From Promethearchaeota archaeon (lineage in GTDB: Archaea > Asgardarchaeota > Lokiarchaeia > Sigynarchaeales > SOKP01), in the NCBI GenBank assembly GCA_014730295.1, contig WJIN01000424.1, positions 1 to 6,818 of the forward strand: a stretch of 6,818 nt of DNA. The letters run 5' to 3'. Under the pieces are notes generated by a model, which did not search any database, was not told where the DNA came from, and was given only the letters and a program-made list of their open reading frames with translations. Below, one piece after another: positions 111 to 6,771 of the stretch. A program made the translations under genes and the position numbers. Numbering within the stretch: position 1 is the stretch's first letter; each line of letters opens with the position of its first letter.

Positions 111-1115
111 ATGAAATTCTTTAAGGCACTATTTAATAGAGAAATCGTTAAATTAGGACTTATCCTTTTTCTCACATTTCTTTTGCAATTAATAGGTCCT
201 ATTTTTTTTGCTGATTATCCTATACCAGATGCGAAAGAATATAAAGCTTTAGTAGAATTTTTTAGAGGACAAGGAGCATTCACGGACGCAGGGGTGATAT
301 GGCGGGGGAGAGTATTAGTCCCTCTTATAGCTTCAATTTTTCCATTTGATCCCTTAATCAGTTTAAGAATTGTAAATATTGTCTTTACATTATTCTGTGT
401 AGTCTTTTTTTATCAAATTTTATCATTGCTTAAATTTCGAAATAAAGAAAGATTTTTGGGTATATTTTTATTTATTATAGCAGTCCCCACCATTACCATA
501 GGTTCAACACCTCTAACTGACTCTGCGGGATTATTTTTCGTGGTTTTCTCTATATACCTTTATTTACGATTAGATAATAAACCAAAAAAATTCTTATTAA
601 TAGGAATTATTCTCGCTATTGGAGTTTTTAGCAGAGAATCAGTTTTATTTATTATTCCTGTATTAATTCTTTGGGAAATTATTGAAATAGGAGTTTCAAA
701 GAATATTATAAAAGATATAGCTCTCAAAATTTTATTGATCGGGACATTGCCCTTATTATCATTCATTTTTATTAGAATCTTGGTACCTAAATCGTATCTT
801 TTGGACCAAATTAGCTTTTCACGTTTATTAGAAAATTTAACCGTTGAAACGTTTGAGGCAACTACACTTGCCACAATCGGTCAATTATCTGTGATTCTTA
901 TAATTGGTATTTTTGGGAATTTTACTAAAGTAATCAAGAAGTCCAAAAAGCTTTGGAAATTGATAATAGGTGCTGGAGGTTTTCTTCCAGAGTTAATAAT
1001 GGTGTATCTAATTGGCCCTCCTGGGAATAGGTTTTTCTGGATTTATTTTATATTTGCCATTCCATTCCTTTTATATTCTTTCTCCAATCTTAGGGTTAAG
1101 GATTTAAAGAATTAG
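111..1115 (+). CDS. Multi-pass membrane protein, probable GT-C-fold glycosyltransferase
   Basis: This 334-residue protein is strongly hydrophobic, with about eight or nine likely membrane segments (around residues 13-33, 83-107, 114-131, 136-153, 160-187, 204-224, 257-272, 283-301 and 306-325). A polar loop follows the first segment (about 34-67) and carries PDAKEY (Asp40, Tyr44) and then WRGRVLVPL (65-71). An acidic residue in the first external loop followed by an Arg-x-Leu-x-Pro stretch is typical of GT-C transferases, which move sugars from lipid-phosphate donors on the outer face of the membrane. LTDSAGLFF (135-143) and SRES (174-177) also resemble motifs in uncharacterised proteins of that class. 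This is motif resemblance, so donor and acceptor are unknown and another polytopic protein is possible. The ATG at 111 starts directly with MKFFKALFNR, a short basic N-terminus before the first helix. It lies 92 bp upstream of the transaldolase and may have its own promoter. Confidence 0.55.
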   Translation: MKFFKALFNREIVKLGLILFLTFLLQLIGPIFFADYPIPDAKEYKALVEFFRGQGAFTDAGVIWRGRVLVPLIASIFPFDPLISLRIVNIVFTLFCVVFFYQILSLLKFRNKERFLGIFLFIIAVPTITIGSTPLTDSAGLFFVVFSIYLYLRLDNKPKKFLLIGIILAIGVFSRESVLFIIPVLILWEIIEIGVSKNIIKDIALKILLIGTLPLLSFIFIRILVPKSYLLDQISFSRLLENLTVETFEATTLATIGQLSVILIIGIFGNFTKVIKKSKKLWKLIIGAGGFLPELIMVYLIGPPGNRFFWIYFIFAIPFLLYSFSNLRVKDLKN

Positions 1116-1207: not shown

Positions 1208-1867
1208 ATGAAGTTTTTTATAGATACAGCGAATTTAGATCAAATAACGGAGATGCAAGATTTAGGAATTATCGACGGAGTTACTACTAATCCAACCCTA
1301 CTTTCCAGAGAAGGAGCGGAACCTATTGAACAACTTAAGAAGATTTGTAAAATTGTTGAGGGTCCTATAAGTGCTGAGGTTGTAGGATTAAAAACGGAAG
1401 AGATGGTCTCTGAAGCTCGAGAATTAGCCCAAATAGCTCCGAACATAGTAATTAAGATTCCTATGACCAAAGATGGGATAAAAGCGGTGAAGATTTTAGA
1501 GTCCGAGGGGATAAAAACTAATGTGACCCTGGTTTTTTCCCAAAATCAGGTACTTATTGCGGCAAAAGCGGGCGCTTCATATATCAGTCCATTCATCGGC
1601 AGATTGATGGATAATGGACAGAATGAAGTCGATATGCTCAGAGAAACCATGGAAATTATCAATGCGTATGACTTTAAATCTGAGATTATCGTGGCATCAG
1701 TGCGAAATGCTCGTCATGTTATTGAAGCAGCTAAAATCGGTGCCCATATCTCCACAATTCCCTTCGGAGTATTAGAAAAAATGTTTAAACATCCGCGGAC
1801 AGATGAGGGTTTGAAGGCTTTTCTGAAAGATTGGGAGAAATTACAAACCCAGCTGAAAAATCAATAA
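1208..1867 (+). CDS. tal: Transaldolase, small TalC/MipB-type (transaldolase rather than fructose-6-phosphate aldolase signature)
   Basis: Transaldolase moves a dihydroxyacetone unit between fructose-6-P plus erythrose-4-P and sedoheptulose-7-P plus glyceraldehyde-3-P in the cytoplasmic non-oxidative pentose phosphate pathway. The 219-residue length is normal for the small single-domain (beta/alpha)8 class. Visible motifs are FIDTANL with Asp6, GVTTNPT (24-30), VIKIPMT with the Schiff-base lysine Lys83, TNVTLVFS (104-111), SPFIGRLMD (127-135, Arg132) and VASVRN (162-167). Two positions separate transaldolases from the related fructose-6-phosphate aldolases: E. coli aldolase has Gln59 and Tyr131, and the equivalents here are Glu57 and Phe129, as in true transaldolases. 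The ATG at 1208 gives the canonical N-terminus. It is the first gene of a tight block, with only 17 bp to the next ATG and then the two transketolase subunits, which use the same sugar phosphates. Confidence 0.93.
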
Positions 1868-1884: not shown

Positions 1885-2868
1885 ATGGATTTAGAAGAGA
1901 TAAAAAAGTGGAATAATCAGAAGATCTTAATCATCGGAGAATCCTTAGTCGATAAATATATTTTCGGATATGCAGATAGGATCTCTCCGGATGCTCCAGT
2001 CCCCAATATTAAAGTAGAGGAAACCGAAACTTTTATAGGTGCCATAGGGCTTGTCCTAAAATTCATTAAATCCTTAGGTGGTATTCCCGAAATTTGTACT
2101 ATTATTGGGAATGATTATGAAGGGAATTTCTTCTATAAAAAAATTGAAGAATTAAAATTAGATCTATCTGGTATAATAATTGACGATTCTATCAATACCC
2201 CCCAGATAACCCGTATTAAATCAATGAATCAACACCTCCTTAGATTGGAAACTGATTATAAACAGAATATTTCTTCTGAAGTTATTGAACAATTTTATGA
2301 AAAGATAGAATCTCAGAGAAAAGATTTGGGAGCAATTATTATTCTTGACTATGGAATTGGAGAATTATTTGAAGATGTCTTCATTCAAAATCTCTTGAAC
2401 AAAATCAAAAAAACCTATCCTAAAGTCCCCATAATAGCCAGACCGAATCTTGATAATTATTACCTATATGAAAATACTGATCTCATACGAATGAACTTAT
2501 TAAAAGCACTTCACACCCTCTCAATTGATTGCTGTACAGATACGAGTGTCTCTATAGTGGGAAAAAGAATTATAAATACCTCAAAATGTAAGAATGTTTT
2601 GCTAAATCATATTGAATCTGACTCATATTTGTTTTTTCAAGATAAAGAAAAGTTTGAGAGATATCCTTCATTTTTAAACACCCGAATAAGGAGTTTTGTG
2701 TCTGTAGGGAGTGTTATTATGGCGATATTAGGACTCTCTTATGCGGCGGGATTCCCAGTTGAGAAGGCAGTCGACTTTGCTTTAAAAGGAGCGTCACTTT
2801 CAGCTATATTGCCTCCTATTCAATTTTTCAATCAAGCCGATCTCTTAGAGTACCTAAGTAGAGATTGA
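1885..2868 (+). CDS. RfaE/HldE-like PfkB-fold protein, probable pseudokinase
   Basis: This 327-residue protein resembles the N-terminal kinase domain of HldE/RfaE (D-glycero-beta-D-manno-heptose-7-phosphate kinase). It has KILIIGESLVDKYIFG (13-28), the family hallmark RISPDAPVP (32-40), a sugar-lid region with QHLLRLE (116-122) and ILDYGIGEL (153-161), and the C-terminal SYAAGFPVEKAVDFAL (285-300). Key catalytic motifs are missing. PGGAANVA reads FIGAIGLV (50-57). The TPN strand reads RMN (202-204). The nucleotide-site TRxExG region reads NHIESD (241-246). The GAGD anion hole/catalytic-base motif reads SVGS (273-276), so the catalytic Asp is Ser276. No nucleotidyltransferase domain follows. 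The frame is intact, so this is not a decayed gene. It probably has a non-kinase or regulatory role, or an altered chemistry. The ATG at 1885 is preferred over an upstream in-frame TTG at 1831, which would overlap the transaldolase end and add an 18-residue tail unlike the family. No Shine-Dalgarno sequence is seen. Confidence 0.8.
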   Translation: MDLEEIKKWNNQKILIIGESLVDKYIFGYADRISPDAPVPNIKVEETETFIGAIGLVLKFIKSLGGIPEICTIIGNDYEGNFFYKKIEELKLDLSGIIIDDSINTPQITRIKSMNQHLLRLETDYKQNISSEVIEQFYEKIESQRKDLGAIIILDYGIGELFEDVFIQNLLNKIKKTYPKVPIIARPNLDNYYLYENTDLIRMNLLKALHTLSIDCCTDTSVSIVGKRIINTSKCKNVLLNHIESDSYLFFQDKEKFERYPSFLNTRIRSFVSVGSVIMAILGLSYAAGFPVEKAVDFALKGASLSAILPPIQFFNQADLLEYLSRD

Positions 2869-2893: not shown

Positions 2894-3748
2894 ATGTCTG
2901 TTAGCGACCAGCAAGAAAAAGAATTAACAAAAGAAATCTTGAAAATTAAGAAAGATATCCTAAAGATGATTTATAAAGCCCAATCAGGACACCCGGGAGG
3001 ATCTCTTTCTTGCGCGAGTCTGCTATATCTCCTCTACACACAAATCCTTAAAATCGATCATCAAAATCCTAATTGGGAAGAGAGAGATATTTTTATACTA
3101 AGTAAAGGACACGCTGCACCCGCGCTCTATGCGGTATTATCGGAAATCGGATATATTAATAGAAAGGATTTATTCACTTTACGAGAATTTGGTTCAACTC
3201 TTCAAGGTCATCCCGTAAAAAACAAAGATATAGGGATTGAAGTCTCAACCGGATCCTTAGGAATGGGATTATCTATCGGATTAGGATGCGCCTTAGCAGC
3301 TAAATTGGATCAGGCTGATAGACGGATTTATGTATTATTGGGGGATGGAGAATTAAATGAAGGGGCAATATGGGAAGCTGCAATGGCTGCCAGTCATTTT
3401 AAATTGGATAATTTAACAGCTATAGTTGATCGTAATGGTATTCAAATTGATGGTTCAACCGAAGAAATCATGGCTTTAGAACCACTTGCTGAAAAGTGGA
3501 GGGCCTTTGGGTGGCACACGTTTGAGGTTGATGGTGCTAATTTTAAGGCTTTAAAAAATAGCTTTGAAAACGCTAAAAAAATAATACAGAGACCTTCTGT
3601 TATTATTTCTTATTTAACTAAGGGTTCTGATGTATCTTTTATGGAACATACGAGAAAATACCATGGAAGGCCTCCAAATAAAGAGGAGTACAAAGGCGCT
3701 ATTGAAGAAATTGAGACCCTAATCAAGAAATTAAATGAGGAGATTTAA
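2894..3748 (+). CDS. Transketolase, N-terminal (thiamine diphosphate-binding) subunit
   Basis: This is the first half of a split transketolase, which moves two-carbon ketol units between sugar phosphates using thiamine diphosphate (ThDP) and a divalent metal. It has 284 residues, usual for the stand-alone N-terminal subunit. Motifs are SGHPGGSLSCA (31-41, His33), SKGHAAPALYA (70-80, His73), the STGSLGMGLSIGLG stretch (118-131), and the ThDP/metal motif GDGELNEGAIWE (150-161) closed by DRNGIQ (179-184, Asn181). The C-terminal YHGRPP (256-261) supplies the His found in the substrate channel. All expected ThDP-domain residues are present, so the subunit should be functional with its partner. The gene begins 25 bp after the RfaE-like gene and ends exactly where the C-terminal subunit starts. 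An A-rich leader (AAAAGAAAAA) stands in place of a clear Shine-Dalgarno sequence. Confidence 0.95.
   Translation: MSVSDQQEKELTKEILKIKKDILKMIYKAQSGHPGGSLSCASLLYLLYTQILKIDHQNPNWEERDIFILSKGHAAPALYAVLSEIGYINRKDLFTLREFGSTLQGHPVKNKDIGIEVSTGSLGMGLSIGLGCALAAKLDQADRRIYVLLGDGELNEGAIWEAAMAASHFKLDNLTAIVDRNGIQIDGSTEEIMALEPLAEKWRAFGWHTFEVDGANFKALKNSFENAKKIIQRPSVIISYLTKGSDVSFMEHTRKYHGRPPNKEEYKGAIEEIETLIKKLNEEI
3737..3742 (+). promoter_or_regulatory. Shine-Dalgarno site for the C-terminal transketolase subunit
   Basis: GAGGAG lies 6 nt before the ATG at 3749, inside the last codons of the N-terminal subunit. It is the only strong Shine-Dalgarno match among the gene starts in this window. It fits translational coupling of two subunits that must be made in equal amounts. 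Confidence 0.6.
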
Positions 3749-4681
3749 ATGCCTGAATTTTCCCTAAGAGACACCTTCGGAGAGTCTCTGGTAGAATATG
3801 GGAGTCAGAATGAAGATATTGTTGTTTTAGATGCGGATTTATCCTCTTCCACAAGGACATATAAATTTGCGGAAAAATTTCCCAATCGATTTTTCAATTT
3901 CGGTATCGCAGAACAAAATATGGTTGGTGCTGCGATGGGATTTGCAATTTCTAGAAAAATCCCAATTGTAAGCGGTTTTGCGATTTTTACCATTGGAAGG
4001 GCGTGGGAATTTATTAGAATGGCGTGTCATGATAATTTAAATATCAAATTCGTCACTACCCACGCAGGGTTTGTCGGAGAGGACGGAAGTTCTCATAACG
4101 CATTGGAAGATTTAAGCATTATGGCAAGCTTACCTAATCTCAACATTTTGGTGCCTTGTGATAGTGCCGAACTTCGAAGTATGTTAAAATATGCCATTAA
4201 TAAAGACGGACCCTACTATATTAGACTCCCCAGAAGCTCTTTAACGCAGATTCATAAGCAGAATTACAACTATTCAAAAAACCAAATAGATGTCATAAAA
4301 AATGGGAAAGATCTGTGTATTATCGGTACAGGATATGGCACCAGTTTCGCAAATGAAAATCTTGATAAACTGACCCAAAAATATGACATCTCAATTAAGC
4401 TTATTAATCTCTCAACGGTCAAACCGATTCCAATAGAAAAATTGCTGAATGAGCTTAAAGATATTGACAAAGTTTTGGTTATTGAAGAACATAATCTATA
4501 TTGCGGTGTTAGTAGCATACTTGCAAGGTATTTTTCCCTGAGGTCTCCGAAATTGATTAAATCGATAGGAATTCATAATACTTTTGGAGAATCGGGTAAA
4601 CGAGAAAAAATTTTAGAAAATTACGGATTTTCATATAGGAATATTGAAGAGAAAATCGCAAAAATCTTAAATCGAAAATAA
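3749..4681 (+). CDS. Transketolase, C-terminal (pyrimidine-binding) subunit
   Basis: This is the second half of the split transketolase, with 310 residues comprising the pyrimidine-binding domain (about 5-165) and the C-terminal transketolase domain (about 185-305). LDADLSSST (27-35) opens the domain. FGIAEQNMVGAAMG (51-64) carries the catalytic Glu55 that activates the ThDP aminopyrimidine. THAGFVGEDGSSHNALED (104-121) gives Asp112 and His116, and YIRLPRSS (157-164) gives the phosphate-binding arginines Arg159 and Arg162. CIIGTGYG (190-197) begins the last domain, followed by VIEEHNLYCG (249-258). The ATG follows the stop of the preceding subunit with no intervening base, and a GAGGAG site sits just upstream. 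The two products should form an alpha2beta2 enzyme. By sequence alone, a related two-subunit 1-deoxyxylulose-5-P synthase-like or sulfosugar transketolase activity cannot be fully excluded, but adjacency to transaldolase favours ordinary transketolase. Confidence 0.95.
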   Translation: MPEFSLRDTFGESLVEYGSQNEDIVVLDADLSSSTRTYKFAEKFPNRFFNFGIAEQNMVGAAMGFAISRKIPIVSGFAIFTIGRAWEFIRMACHDNLNIKFVTTHAGFVGEDGSSHNALEDLSIMASLPNLNILVPCDSAELRSMLKYAINKDGPYYIRLPRSSLTQIHKQNYNYSKNQIDVIKNGKDLCIIGTGYGTSFANENLDKLTQKYDISIKLINLSTVKPIPIEKLLNELKDIDKVLVIEEHNLYCGVSSILARYFSLRSPKLIKSIGIHNTFGESGKREKILENYGFSYRNIEEKIAKILNRK

Positions 4682-4734: not shown

Positions 4735-5268
4735 TTAATTTGGAATATACTTTTTCTCTTTCAACCATTTCAAAATCTTTTCTTTGCTTTCATTAACCGT
4801 TTCTTTTTCTGTATAAATTATGATATCCGAATCATCGGGTTCCTCAAATGGGTCATCATATCCCGTAAAATTCTCGATTTCTCCCGCCTTTGCTTTTGCC
4901 CACATCCCTTTCACATCACGTTCAGCGCATATTTCTGGTGATGCTTTTATATATACGAGAATAAATTCACCAATCTCCTCTCTTGAATTTTTTCGAATAT
5001 TATTATATGGAGAAACAAATGTACATAACACTGCTACACCATTTCGGGTTAAAAGTTTTGCTACGAAAGTCACCCGTTCGATATTTAGTCGTCTATCTTC
5101 CTTAGAAAACCCCAGATCTTTTGTCAAGCTTTTTCGGACAATATCGCCGTCCAGTCTCTCCACTTTCATTCCTATATTTTTAAGATCTTCAGCTAAAGCA
5201 TCTGCTAGAGTAGTCTTTCCCGAGCAAGGAAGTCCGGTAAACCATAATGTAAAGCCTTTATGTTCCAT
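4735..5268 (-). CDS. cysC: Adenylylsulfate (APS) kinase
   Basis: APS kinase phosphorylates adenosine 5'-phosphosulfate at the 3' position with ATP to give PAPS. The 177-residue size is normal for a stand-alone enzyme. The Walker A loop is GLPCSGKTT (12-20). LDGDIVRKSL (39-48) and GFSKEDRRLNIER (53-65) form the APS site. FVSPYNNIR (84-92) holds the conserved Ser86. ERDVKGMWAKAKAGEI (116-131) and NFTGYDDPFEEP (133-144) are the C-terminal APS-binding and lid regions. All look intact. The ATG at 5266-5268 gives the usual short N-terminus before the P-loop strand. It is the last gene of the minus-strand set, 43 bp downstream of ATP sulfurylase. That enzyme's unfavourable reaction is pulled forward by this one. 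A TATA-like TTATAAATT sits in the gap but too close to the ATG for a leaderless start, so co-transcription with sat is more likely. Confidence 0.95.
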   Translation of the reverse strand: MEHKGFTLWFTGLPCSGKTTLADALAEDLKNIGMKVERLDGDIVRKSLTKDLGFSKEDRRLNIERVTFVAKLLTRNGVAVLCTFVSPYNNIRKNSREEIGEFILVYIKASPEICAERDVKGMWAKAKAGEIENFTGYDDPFEEPDDSDIIIYTEKETVNESKEKILKWLKEKKYIPN

Positions 5269-5311
5269 TTTTAAAATTAATTTATAATATTTTTTTATTC
5301 TAGTAAGTTAT

Positions 5312-6457
5312 TCAGCAGAATGGATTGTTATATTTTAGAATTACTTCTGCTACTTCTGGTCGCATGACATTTGGTTCGGGGTTTTTACCCGAATTAATCA
5401 TATCTCTGATTCGCGTTCCGCTAAAAAAATCGTGCTTATCGGGCGGATGAGGACAAATTTTGTCATTTACTACAGAATTACATATATTACATCGTGAAAA
5501 TGATCTGAAAAACAATGGTTCTATCCCAAGATCAGGAAAATGCCTGAAAATTTCATGTGCATCATACGGCCCATAAAAATCGCCCACTCCCGCATGATCT
5601 CTCCCAATAATGATGTGATCACACCCATAATTTTTTCTTGCAATCGCATGAAACACAGCCTCTTTAGGACCAGCATATCGCATCTCAGTTTCAAAGATAC
5701 TCAAAACTACACGATTTTCGGGATAATAATTTTCAATTAAAGCTTTATATGATTCGATAATGACCTCATCTAAAAAATCTCCTTCTTTTTTTTTCCCCAT
5801 GACGGGATTAATAAAAAGACCGTCGTTGAAAGTTAAGGCGGCTTTTTGAACGTATTCATGTCCTAAATGGGGAGGATTTCGAGTTTGAAATGCTACTACG
5901 CGATCCCATTTTTTAGTTTTGAATAAGACTCTTGTCTCCAGAGGCTTTAAATCAAGCTCTGGGAAAGGAGGTTTTATTTCATTAATGAGAAAGATATCTC
6001 CTCCTATTAATAAATCCTTTTGCTTCAGAATCTTTCTAACGCCAGGATGTGAGCTATCTGTCGTTCCGTATACTTTCTCCGCAAAATTTTGTTTATCATA
6101 TTTATATATATCTTCAATATTTAAAAGGGCTAAAGGATTATCAATAGAATCCGTGAGAATAACATTATCACCGGCTTTAATATCTGGGATTTCTGATTTA
6201 GATATATCTAAAACGATTGGGATAGGCCACACAATATTACTTTCCAAATACATATGCTCCAAGACGTTAATGGTGTCATTCTCAACCATAAATCCCTCTA
6301 ATGGGCTGAATACACCATAGGAAATATTTTTGATTTCCTTCCAAGTAGATAATTCTACTTGAATGTGTTCGAATTCTCCAATTTCACCAATGAGGCGTTC
6401 TTTTTCTTGTTTAGGCAAGGCTTTATTGATTAAACTTCCACCGTGTGGTTGGATCAT
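5312..6457 (-). CDS. sat: Sulfate adenylyltransferase (ATP sulfurylase)
   Basis: ATP sulfurylase joins ATP and sulfate to make adenosine 5'-phosphosulfate and pyrophosphate. The 381-residue protein is the monodomain Sat type: an N-terminal PUA-like domain (about 1-165) with GVFSPLEGFM (48-57), then the catalytic domain with QTRNPPHLGHE (191-201, the HxxH nucleotide motif), EMRYAGPKEAVFHA (258-271), GRDHAGVGDFYGPY (285-298), SGTRIR (346-351) and MRPEV (365-369). Cys323, Cys326, Cys335 and His337 form a CxxC...CxH zinc ribbon known in many prokaryotic Sat proteins. There is no fused APS kinase domain, which is encoded separately just downstream. The start codon at 6455-6457 is preceded by a purine-rich GGGGAAAAAAATC, at best a weak ribosome site. 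The upstream regulator gene ends 26 bp away, so the two are probably co-transcribed. The enzyme could in principle run backwards in sulfur oxidation, but the APS kinase neighbour points to PAPS synthesis. Confidence 0.96.
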   Translation of the reverse strand: MIQPHGGSLINKALPKQEKERLIGEIGEFEHIQVELSTWKEIKNISYGVFSPLEGFMVENDTINVLEHMYLESNIVWPIPIVLDISKSEIPDIKAGDNVILTDSIDNPLALLNIEDIYKYDKQNFAEKVYGTTDSSHPGVRKILKQKDLLIGGDIFLINEIKPPFPELDLKPLETRVLFKTKKWDRVVAFQTRNPPHLGHEYVQKAALTFNDGLFINPVMGKKKEGDFLDEVIIESYKALIENYYPENRVVLSIFETEMRYAGPKEAVFHAIARKNYGCDHIIIGRDHAGVGDFYGPYDAHEIFRHFPDLGIEPLFFRSFSRCNICNSVVNDKICPHPPDKHDFFSGTRIRDMINSGKNPEPNVMRPEVAEVILKYNNPFC

Positions 6458-6483
6458 GATTTTTTTCCCCTTGAATTTATTTA

Positions 6484-6723
6484 TTAATCGAGGTATCCCA
6501 AATCTCTCAATCTTTGTTTGACTTGTTCCTCCTCCTCTTTAGTAAATGCTTGCTTATTTCGCTCCTCCTCTTCTATTGAAGAAAGAACTTGTCGGAGTAC
6601 ATACGTAACATAAGCGGAAACGGAAGAAAAACCAGTACCTTTCATTCTTTCCTTTATCTTCTCTGCTAAAGGTTTAGGTATCGAAACTGTGGTATATTCT
6701 ACCTTATGATTATTTTGACTCAT
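6484..6723 (-). CDS. Small ribbon-helix-helix (CopG/Arc-type) DNA-binding protein
   Basis: This 79-residue protein has the pattern of an obligate-dimer ribbon-helix-helix regulator. The beta-strand VEYTTVSIP (8-16) alternates polar and apolar residues. The first helix is PLAEKIKERMK (18-28), the turn is GTGFSSVSAY (29-38), and the second helix runs through about residue 49. The strands of a dimer would enter the DNA major groove. Beyond the fold is an acidic, charged helix (EEEERNKQAFTKEEEEQ, 51-67) ending in RLRDLGYLD (71-79). The ATG at 6721-6723 is preferred to an in-frame GTG at 6732, which only adds Val/Met-Leu-Ile and lies deeper in the A/T leader. It is the first gene of the set with sat and cysC, 26 bp before sat. 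It may repress that operon and itself. Regulation by sulfur status is inference only, and the ligand, if any, is unknown. Confidence 0.8.
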   Translation of the reverse strand: MSQNNHKVEYTTVSIPKPLAEKIKERMKGTGFSSVSAYVTYVLRQVLSSIEEEERNKQAFTKEEEEQVKQRLRDLGYLD

Positions 6724-6771
6724 TATTAACACTTATTTATTATTACATAAAAATCTTAATGAACTATAATG

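Follow-up and report, generated by a model that had tools for sequence, protein, structure and literature searches.

The Locus and Its Genes

We have analyzed a stretch of 6,818 nucleotides of lokiarchaeal DNA (hereafter the window) that carries genes for a transaldolase, a 327-amino acid protein with the fold of the HldE/RfaE kinases, and the two chains of a split transketolase, TktN and TktC (Table 1). Transaldolases can be distinguished from fructose-6-phosphate aldolases by one Glu/Phe pair. The kinase-like protein appears from its residues to be inactive, and we term it a pseudokinase.

Table 1. Genes of the window and sites within the pseudokinase gene (all on the + strand)
Feature	Position	Strand	Evidence and remarks
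PMT-like membrane glycosyltransferase, between operon halves	111..1115	+	PF02366, 36 bits; homologue in locus L024 (57%) lies between GmhB and transaldolase
Transaldolase / fructose-6-phosphate aldolase family (TalC/FSA)	1208..1867	+	TIGR00875, 300 bits (cut-off 245.95); NCBI name fructose-6-phosphate aldolase
HldE/RfaE-like putative pseudokinase, 327 aa	1885..2868	+	TIGR02198, 142 bits; AlphaFold pLDDT 87.9; PDB match HldA; family of 396 proteins, 120 listed
Kept RISPDAPVP motif, residues 32-40	1978..2004	+	I33 to P38 in 120/120, P40 in 118/120
Leu56 for GGAAN Asn (E. coli HldE N55)	2050..2052	+	Leu 117/120; Asn 31/33 in HldE-type kinases
Arg186 for DPKG Asp (E. coli HldE D177)	2440..2442	+	Arg 120/120; Asp 32/33 in HldE-type kinases
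Lys207 for NXXE Glu (E. coli HldE E198)	2503..2505	+	Lys 116/120, Asn 4; Glu 33/33 in HldE-type kinases
Vicinal Cys216-Cys217	2530..2535	+	CC in 117 of 120 listed proteins and 21 of 25 genomic loci; not strict
GXGD position, reads S273-V-G-S276	2701..2712	+	Asp to Ser276 (nt 2710-2712); Ser 120/120; Asp 33/33 in HldE-type kinases
Transketolase N-terminal chain TktN	2894..3748	+	PF00456; PDB 6yak N-chain, E 1.5e-84
Transketolase C-terminal chain TktC	3749..4681	+	PF02779 + PF02780

The pseudokinase gene was correctly placed, as a fully open frame, in the original prediction. The mechanical reading frame opens at a TTG at position 1831, but the ATG at 1885 aligns with a methionine in 119 of 120 listed homologues. 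The protein had also been proposed to resemble the heptose-7-phosphate kinase domain along its whole length, and this is borne out by a match to TIGR02198 that spans residues 6-304 and by the presence of RISPDAPVP. The score does not reach the cut-off of 345 bits, and the same is true of 25 lokiarchaeal pseudokinases (130-165 bits). The closest structure in the PDB is HldA (4e84), whose fold the predicted model shares. The weakest parts of that model are residues 111-120 (pLDDT 52) and 121-130 (60), yet residues 105-125 form the best-conserved stretch of the family. The low values over residues 111-130 may mark an interface, or merely a mobile lid.

We found 396 homologues, of which 120 are listed, the protein of the window among these. 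The other 119 are 57-87% identical to it, and A1 accounts for 52 of the 120. The organism names among the listed proteins are Lokiarchaeota or Promethearchaeota; the Lokiarchaeota are archaeal relatives of the eukaryotic ancestors. Several members are labeled bifunctional heptose 7-phosphate kinase/heptose 1-phosphate adenyltransferase, though they lack the catalytic aspartate and, like the protein of the window, consist of a single domain with no adenylyltransferase domain. The label is probably wrong on both counts. A match to BrxB (E 0.0065) lay below the cut-off and was absent at 0.001 for 52 members, and was taken as chance. The scan revealed no viral relatives of the pseudokinase.

Catalytic Residues Have Been Replaced throughout the Family

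The family was compared with 33 HldE-type kinases, consisting of E. coli HldE and 32 proteins, mostly from Bacteroidota, picked by their match to TIGR02198. The set is thus defined by sequence match and not by assay, and nine of its members score under the TIGR02198 cut-off. Their identity to the pseudokinase is 18-28%.

The central claim of the original prediction, that GAGD has become SVGS with loss of the catalytic aspartate (D264 of E. coli HldE), is confirmed. None of the 120 listed homologues keeps GAGD, which would have argued against a pseudokinase, and Ser276 was found in every genomic locus in which the position is present (25 of the 26 examined, L024 being cut). The presence of Ser276 in 120 of 120 homologues rules out strain-specific decay or a sequencing error as its origin. 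Two further replacements, Arg186 and Lys207, had not been listed previously. At the NXXE motif the asparagine is kept in 112 of 120 proteins (N204) and the glutamate is gone in all 120, replaced by lysine or asparagine.

Other proposed changes required some revision. The GGAAN block is indeed altered, but the reading IGAIG was one residue out of register; the block aligns with G52-A-I-G-L56, so that its asparagine corresponds to Leu56. In the TPN region the proline is lost but Asn204 is kept, and TRxExG is changed at its threonine (N241) and glycine (D246). Three lysines conserved in the kinases have also gone; K106 of E. coli HldE is replaced by Ile/Val108, and K154 and K179 by variable residues. 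The residues kept in the family are G18, D23, Y25, G28, SPxAPVP, G52, R110, R120, P187, N204 (112/120) and G275 (119/120). The roles of GXGD, with its catalytic aspartate, and of NXXE, which serves Mg and phosphate, follow PMC5931981. Among the other residues of E. coli HldE, D23, R110 and R120 are taken to lie on the sugar side and the GGAAN asparagine to belong to the sugar site; half of the sugar-site residues are changed.

Of 56 columns with a conservation of 90% or more among the 33 kinases, 27 are changed in the pseudokinases. The columns that depart from the kinase consensus are on average better conserved than the family's average column (0.85 versus 0.75, permutation p 0.012), although columns 158, 188 and 246 vary within the family. 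Relaxed decay would not be expected to give such a result. The exchange of acids that would serve Mg-ATP for Arg186 and Lys207 would fit the holding of an anion without metal, or the simple closure of the site. A redox switch at Cys216-Cys217 was also considered, and was weakened by four of 25 genomic loci that lack one or both cysteines.

The Pseudokinase Is under Selection and Groups with HldE Kinases

If the gene were a pseudogene-like remnant, or had undergone a strain-specific change or sequencing error, the loss of many catalytic residues within a single gene would be readily understood. We regard mere decay as hardly credible, however, given identical replacements in 120 of 120 homologues, open frames and a low ratio of dN/dS. 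For 25 copies, including that of the window and leaving out L017 and L024, the median dN/dS is 0.185 over 105 unsaturated pairs, 195 of the 300 having been dropped as saturated; the pairs used share branches. Purifying constraint had been proposed as a test of the pseudokinase, and is evident in this value of about 0.19. The neighboring genes give 0.07-0.23.

A tree was calculated for the 33 HldE-type kinases, six lokiarchaeal PfkB kinases and 15 sampled pseudokinases. The pseudokinases form one clade (support 100/100) placed among the HldE-type kinases, with the PfkB kinases outside, as expected for common descent with HldE. The exact point at which the clade joins is unsure because the neighboring branches are long. 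The clade has a long stem (4.02) and short end branches (0.065-0.44), showing rapid change with constraint afterwards.

The pseudokinase is real and conserved. To judge from its sequence it descends from an HldE kinase domain and lacks the residues for activity, and it is very probably an HldE-derived protein under selection that is not an ordinary kinase. The fixed replacements, purifying selection, single clade and intact predicted fold support the earlier suggestion of an HldE homologue selected for a non-kinase role. The two roles suggested with it, as a sensor of sugar phosphate or an accessory subunit of the transaldolase or transketolase, stand as candidates.

The Gene Lies in a Predicted Heptose Operon

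The pseudokinase had been described as part of a transaldolase-transketolase operon. Those genes are present, but they represent only half of the setting, since relatives add HddA, GmhA, Rpe and GmhB. The order HddA-GmhA-Rpe-GmhB-transaldolase-pseudokinase-TktN-TktC is found complete, with all eight genes, at 14 of 26 loci, one of which (L006) has an extra reading frame ahead of the pseudokinase. A member is absent at L003, L011, L013, L015, L018, L020, L077 and L078, and L017, L019 and L024 are cut by contig ends. In the window, as in L024, a PMT-like gene stands upstream of the transaldolase gene, and the operon's first half is therefore likely to lie just past the edge of the window.

By gene order the pseudokinase is linked most tightly to the transketolase: TktN begins an estimated 7-35 bp downstream of it in 24 of the 25 loci not cut there. 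The 24 genomes with this operon TktN contain no other TktN match at 1e-40. The transaldolase gene is missing beside the pseudokinase in L003, L077 and L078, which weakens transaldolase as a specific partner. At L004 the operon is partly lost. This is a second copy in genome G004, a metagenome-assembled genome (MAG) whose intact operon is L010; it has fragments of HddA and TktC, no TktN, and intact transaldolase and pseudokinase genes. It may represent contamination.

GmhB passes its curated cut-off (201 versus 178 bits). HddA, with 224 bits against NF049969, does not reach the cut-off of 600, although the match is full length and is its best in NCBIfam; GmhA (179 bits) is under its cut-off of 209. 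For both proteins the PDB relatives agree with the names assigned, those of HddA (3k85 and 4n3o) being named heptose kinases. With these two enzymes below their curated cut-offs, the pathway is assigned by similarity. On that basis the operon would supply sedoheptulose-7-phosphate (transaldolase, split transketolase and Rpe) and convert it to heptose-1-phosphate (GmhA, HddA and GmhB), by the steps described in part of PMC10680097. The HddA-type kinase has the GHMP fold and is unrelated to HldE. We recognized no heptose nucleotidyltransferase (HddC or HldE domain II) among the scanned neighbors at loci L001-L024, leaving the activation step with no recognized gene in the operon.

The Campylobacter jejuni GDP-heptose pathway comprises GmhA, HddA, GmhB and HddC (excerpt of PMC10680097). 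Homologues of the first three are present in the lokiarchaeal operon, which differs in adding transaldolase, split transketolase, Rpe and the pseudokinase, with no HddC recognized nearby. An archaeal heptose route has been proposed for Methanococcus maripaludis (excerpt of PMC11573728), and our results indicate a heptose route in Lokiarchaeota.

Distribution in Asgard Genomes

The pseudokinase is present in 25 of 227 Asgard genomes, mostly MAGs, and all 23 of these whose records bear a name belong to the Lokiarchaeota; the fraction refers to Asgard genomes and not to the lokiarchaeal lineage. An HddA orthologue (1e-149 or better) is found in 24 of the 227, and the two occur together in 23. The exceptions are G016 and G018, with a pseudokinase and no HddA match on short operon contigs (3,102 and 5,902 bases), and G122, with HddA and no pseudokinase, where the contigs stop inside the operon. 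In G161 and G162 the pseudokinase is absent although a distant HddA (37-38% identity) is encoded, and two Asgard genomes carry Rpe-TktN-TktC-transaldolase without a pseudokinase (L167 and L168). From this pattern the pseudokinase gene accompanies the heptose branch plus the transketolase. This association is drawn from a single clade, however, and the correlation is not an independent one.

At E ≤ 1e-30, TIGR02198 matched only the pseudokinases in the 227 genomes. No HldE kinase exceeded the cut-off in any of them, the best nine first-look candidates having been scored in many cases, and within that scope a heterodimer with an active HldE was rejected. Other matches in 23 genomes reached at most 89.4 bits, and all six that were read have GAGD. 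An HldE nucleotidyltransferase domain over the cut-off was found in none of 20 genomes, the best score being 72.6 of the 181.5 bits needed.

Possible Function of the Pseudokinase

The residues give good support to a loss of kinase chemistry, and the protein is probably a regulator or a structural partner. On balance we lean toward an HldE descendant, no longer a kinase, that the heptose-biosynthesis operon has retained as a regulatory or scaffold subunit. In the sequence, the catalytic base and the conserved acids of the donor and metal side have been swapped for a fixed new set, while the fold, the lid motif and some residues of the sugar side (D23, R110 and R120) persist under purifying selection. 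HddA would have taken over phosphorylation, and the HldE-like protein, so relieved, would have lost catalysis and stayed as a non-catalytic subunit. It would bind a co-encoded enzyme, either transketolase, as gene order suggests, or HddA, as logic suggests; transketolase is a tentative choice that we consider possible. It might also bind a sugar phosphate, and so tune the flow into the heptose branch. The retained lid and sugar-side residues would allow room for such a ligand, but with the three conserved lysines and the GGAAN asparagine lost the old cleft may bind none.

The last point would suit a purely structural subunit that stabilizes or localizes the TktN/TktC complex without any ligand, since half of the sugar-site residues and those lysines have gone. 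The position of TktN directly downstream and its being the sole match in its genomes point the same way. We nevertheless think this unlikely. L167 and L168 have the transketolase genes and no pseudokinase, and the Carboxydothermus split-gene transketolase (PDB 6yak), a two-chain enzyme of the kind encoded downstream of the pseudokinase, is active alone when reconstituted, working without a pseudokinase (excerpt of PMC7661550). Moreover L004 retains the pseudokinase in the absence of TktN, and its intact gene beside remnants of HddA and TktC runs counter to the favored reading as well.

Could the protein still be an enzyme, either a kinase with another base or phosphate donor, or the catalyst of a new heptose-phosphate reaction? 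The old active site holds invariant residues, and the nucleotidyltransferase step has no recognized gene in the operon. The fixed basic residues also resemble the rebuilding of the donor site with basic residues in PPi-dependent kinases of the ribokinase family, such as TM0415, which belong to the same fold superfamily (excerpt of PMC5931981). Those enzymes, however, keep the GXGD aspartate and NXXE glutamate and have RXGRGD, according to the same excerpt, and the pseudokinase has none of the three, both acids being missing in 120 of 120 homologues. The two PPi arginine positions are Tyr/Phe271 and Val274 (position 274 is mostly Val in the family), followed by Ser276, and a PPi-dependent kinase was accordingly rejected. 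The basic residue at 202 (K/R), two before NXXE, was likewise discarded as a mark of PPi use, being lysine in 28 of the 33 HldE-type kinases. Every step up to heptose-1-phosphate is already filled, and we consider a surviving enzymatic activity distinctly unlikely.

A more specific form of regulation can be envisaged, in which a phosphorylated heptose, such as the bisphosphate product of HddA, would be held without metal in what was once the Mg-ATP site and now contains Arg186 and Lys207, and the protein would act as an allosteric sensor that throttles the supply of sedoheptulose-7-phosphate by the adjacently encoded transketolase. We give this long shot little weight; if true, it would constitute a feedback loop in the synthesis of archaeal glycan precursors.

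Comparison with Known Systems

HldE/HldA heptose-7-phosphate kinases (TIGR02198; 4e84) resemble the pseudokinase in fold, full-length alignment, the RISPxAPVP lid, D23, R110 and R120, and the context of a heptose pathway. They differ in the catalytic Asp, NXXE Glu, DPKG Asp, GGAAN Asn and three lysines, all of which the pseudokinase replaces, and in the adenylyltransferase domain that it lacks. By analogy the nearest in spirit would be the plant FLN proteins and yeast Gal3p. FRUCTOKINASE-LIKE FLN1 and FLN2 are sugar-kinase relatives in a non-metabolic or regulatory role, and FLN1 has a vicinal Cys pair; they are, however, chloroplast polymerase subunits, and the FLN1 pair lies elsewhere, while that of the pseudokinase is not strict (excerpts of PMC3409070 and PMC4036507). 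Gal3p, as recounted in part of PMC3409070, is also a sugar-kinase relative with a regulatory role, but it belongs to a different kinase fold, and its ligands are ATP and galactose.

In a search of the open-access literature, with subscription papers mostly outside its scope, we found no report of an HldE pseudokinase or of the lokiarchaeal heptose operon. Here a metabolic kinase has apparently been retained without its chemistry in the operon of its own pathway, next to an unrelated kinase that could perform its former function. This offers a clean test case of how enzymes become regulators after non-homologous replacement.

Other Genes near the Operon

In the window (4735-6732, - strand), the operon faces convergent genes for adenylylsulfate kinase (ApsK), ATP sulfurylase (Sat) and a small ribbon-helix-helix-like protein. 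They keep that place in many relatives, where a gene for a type I phosphodiesterase often separates ApsK from Sat, and a link to a sulfated glycan is possible. At L001 (55-1059, -), L020 (646-1650, -) and L024 (146-1150, -) a divergent gene just upstream codes for another HddA-like GHMP kinase, which shares 32-35% identity with that of the operon. Genes resembling GDP-mannose 4,6-dehydratase occur near the heptose operon at many loci, for example at L002 (1209-2252, -), L015 (8806-9840, -) and L018 (8942-9982, +), and their products perhaps modify the activated heptose.
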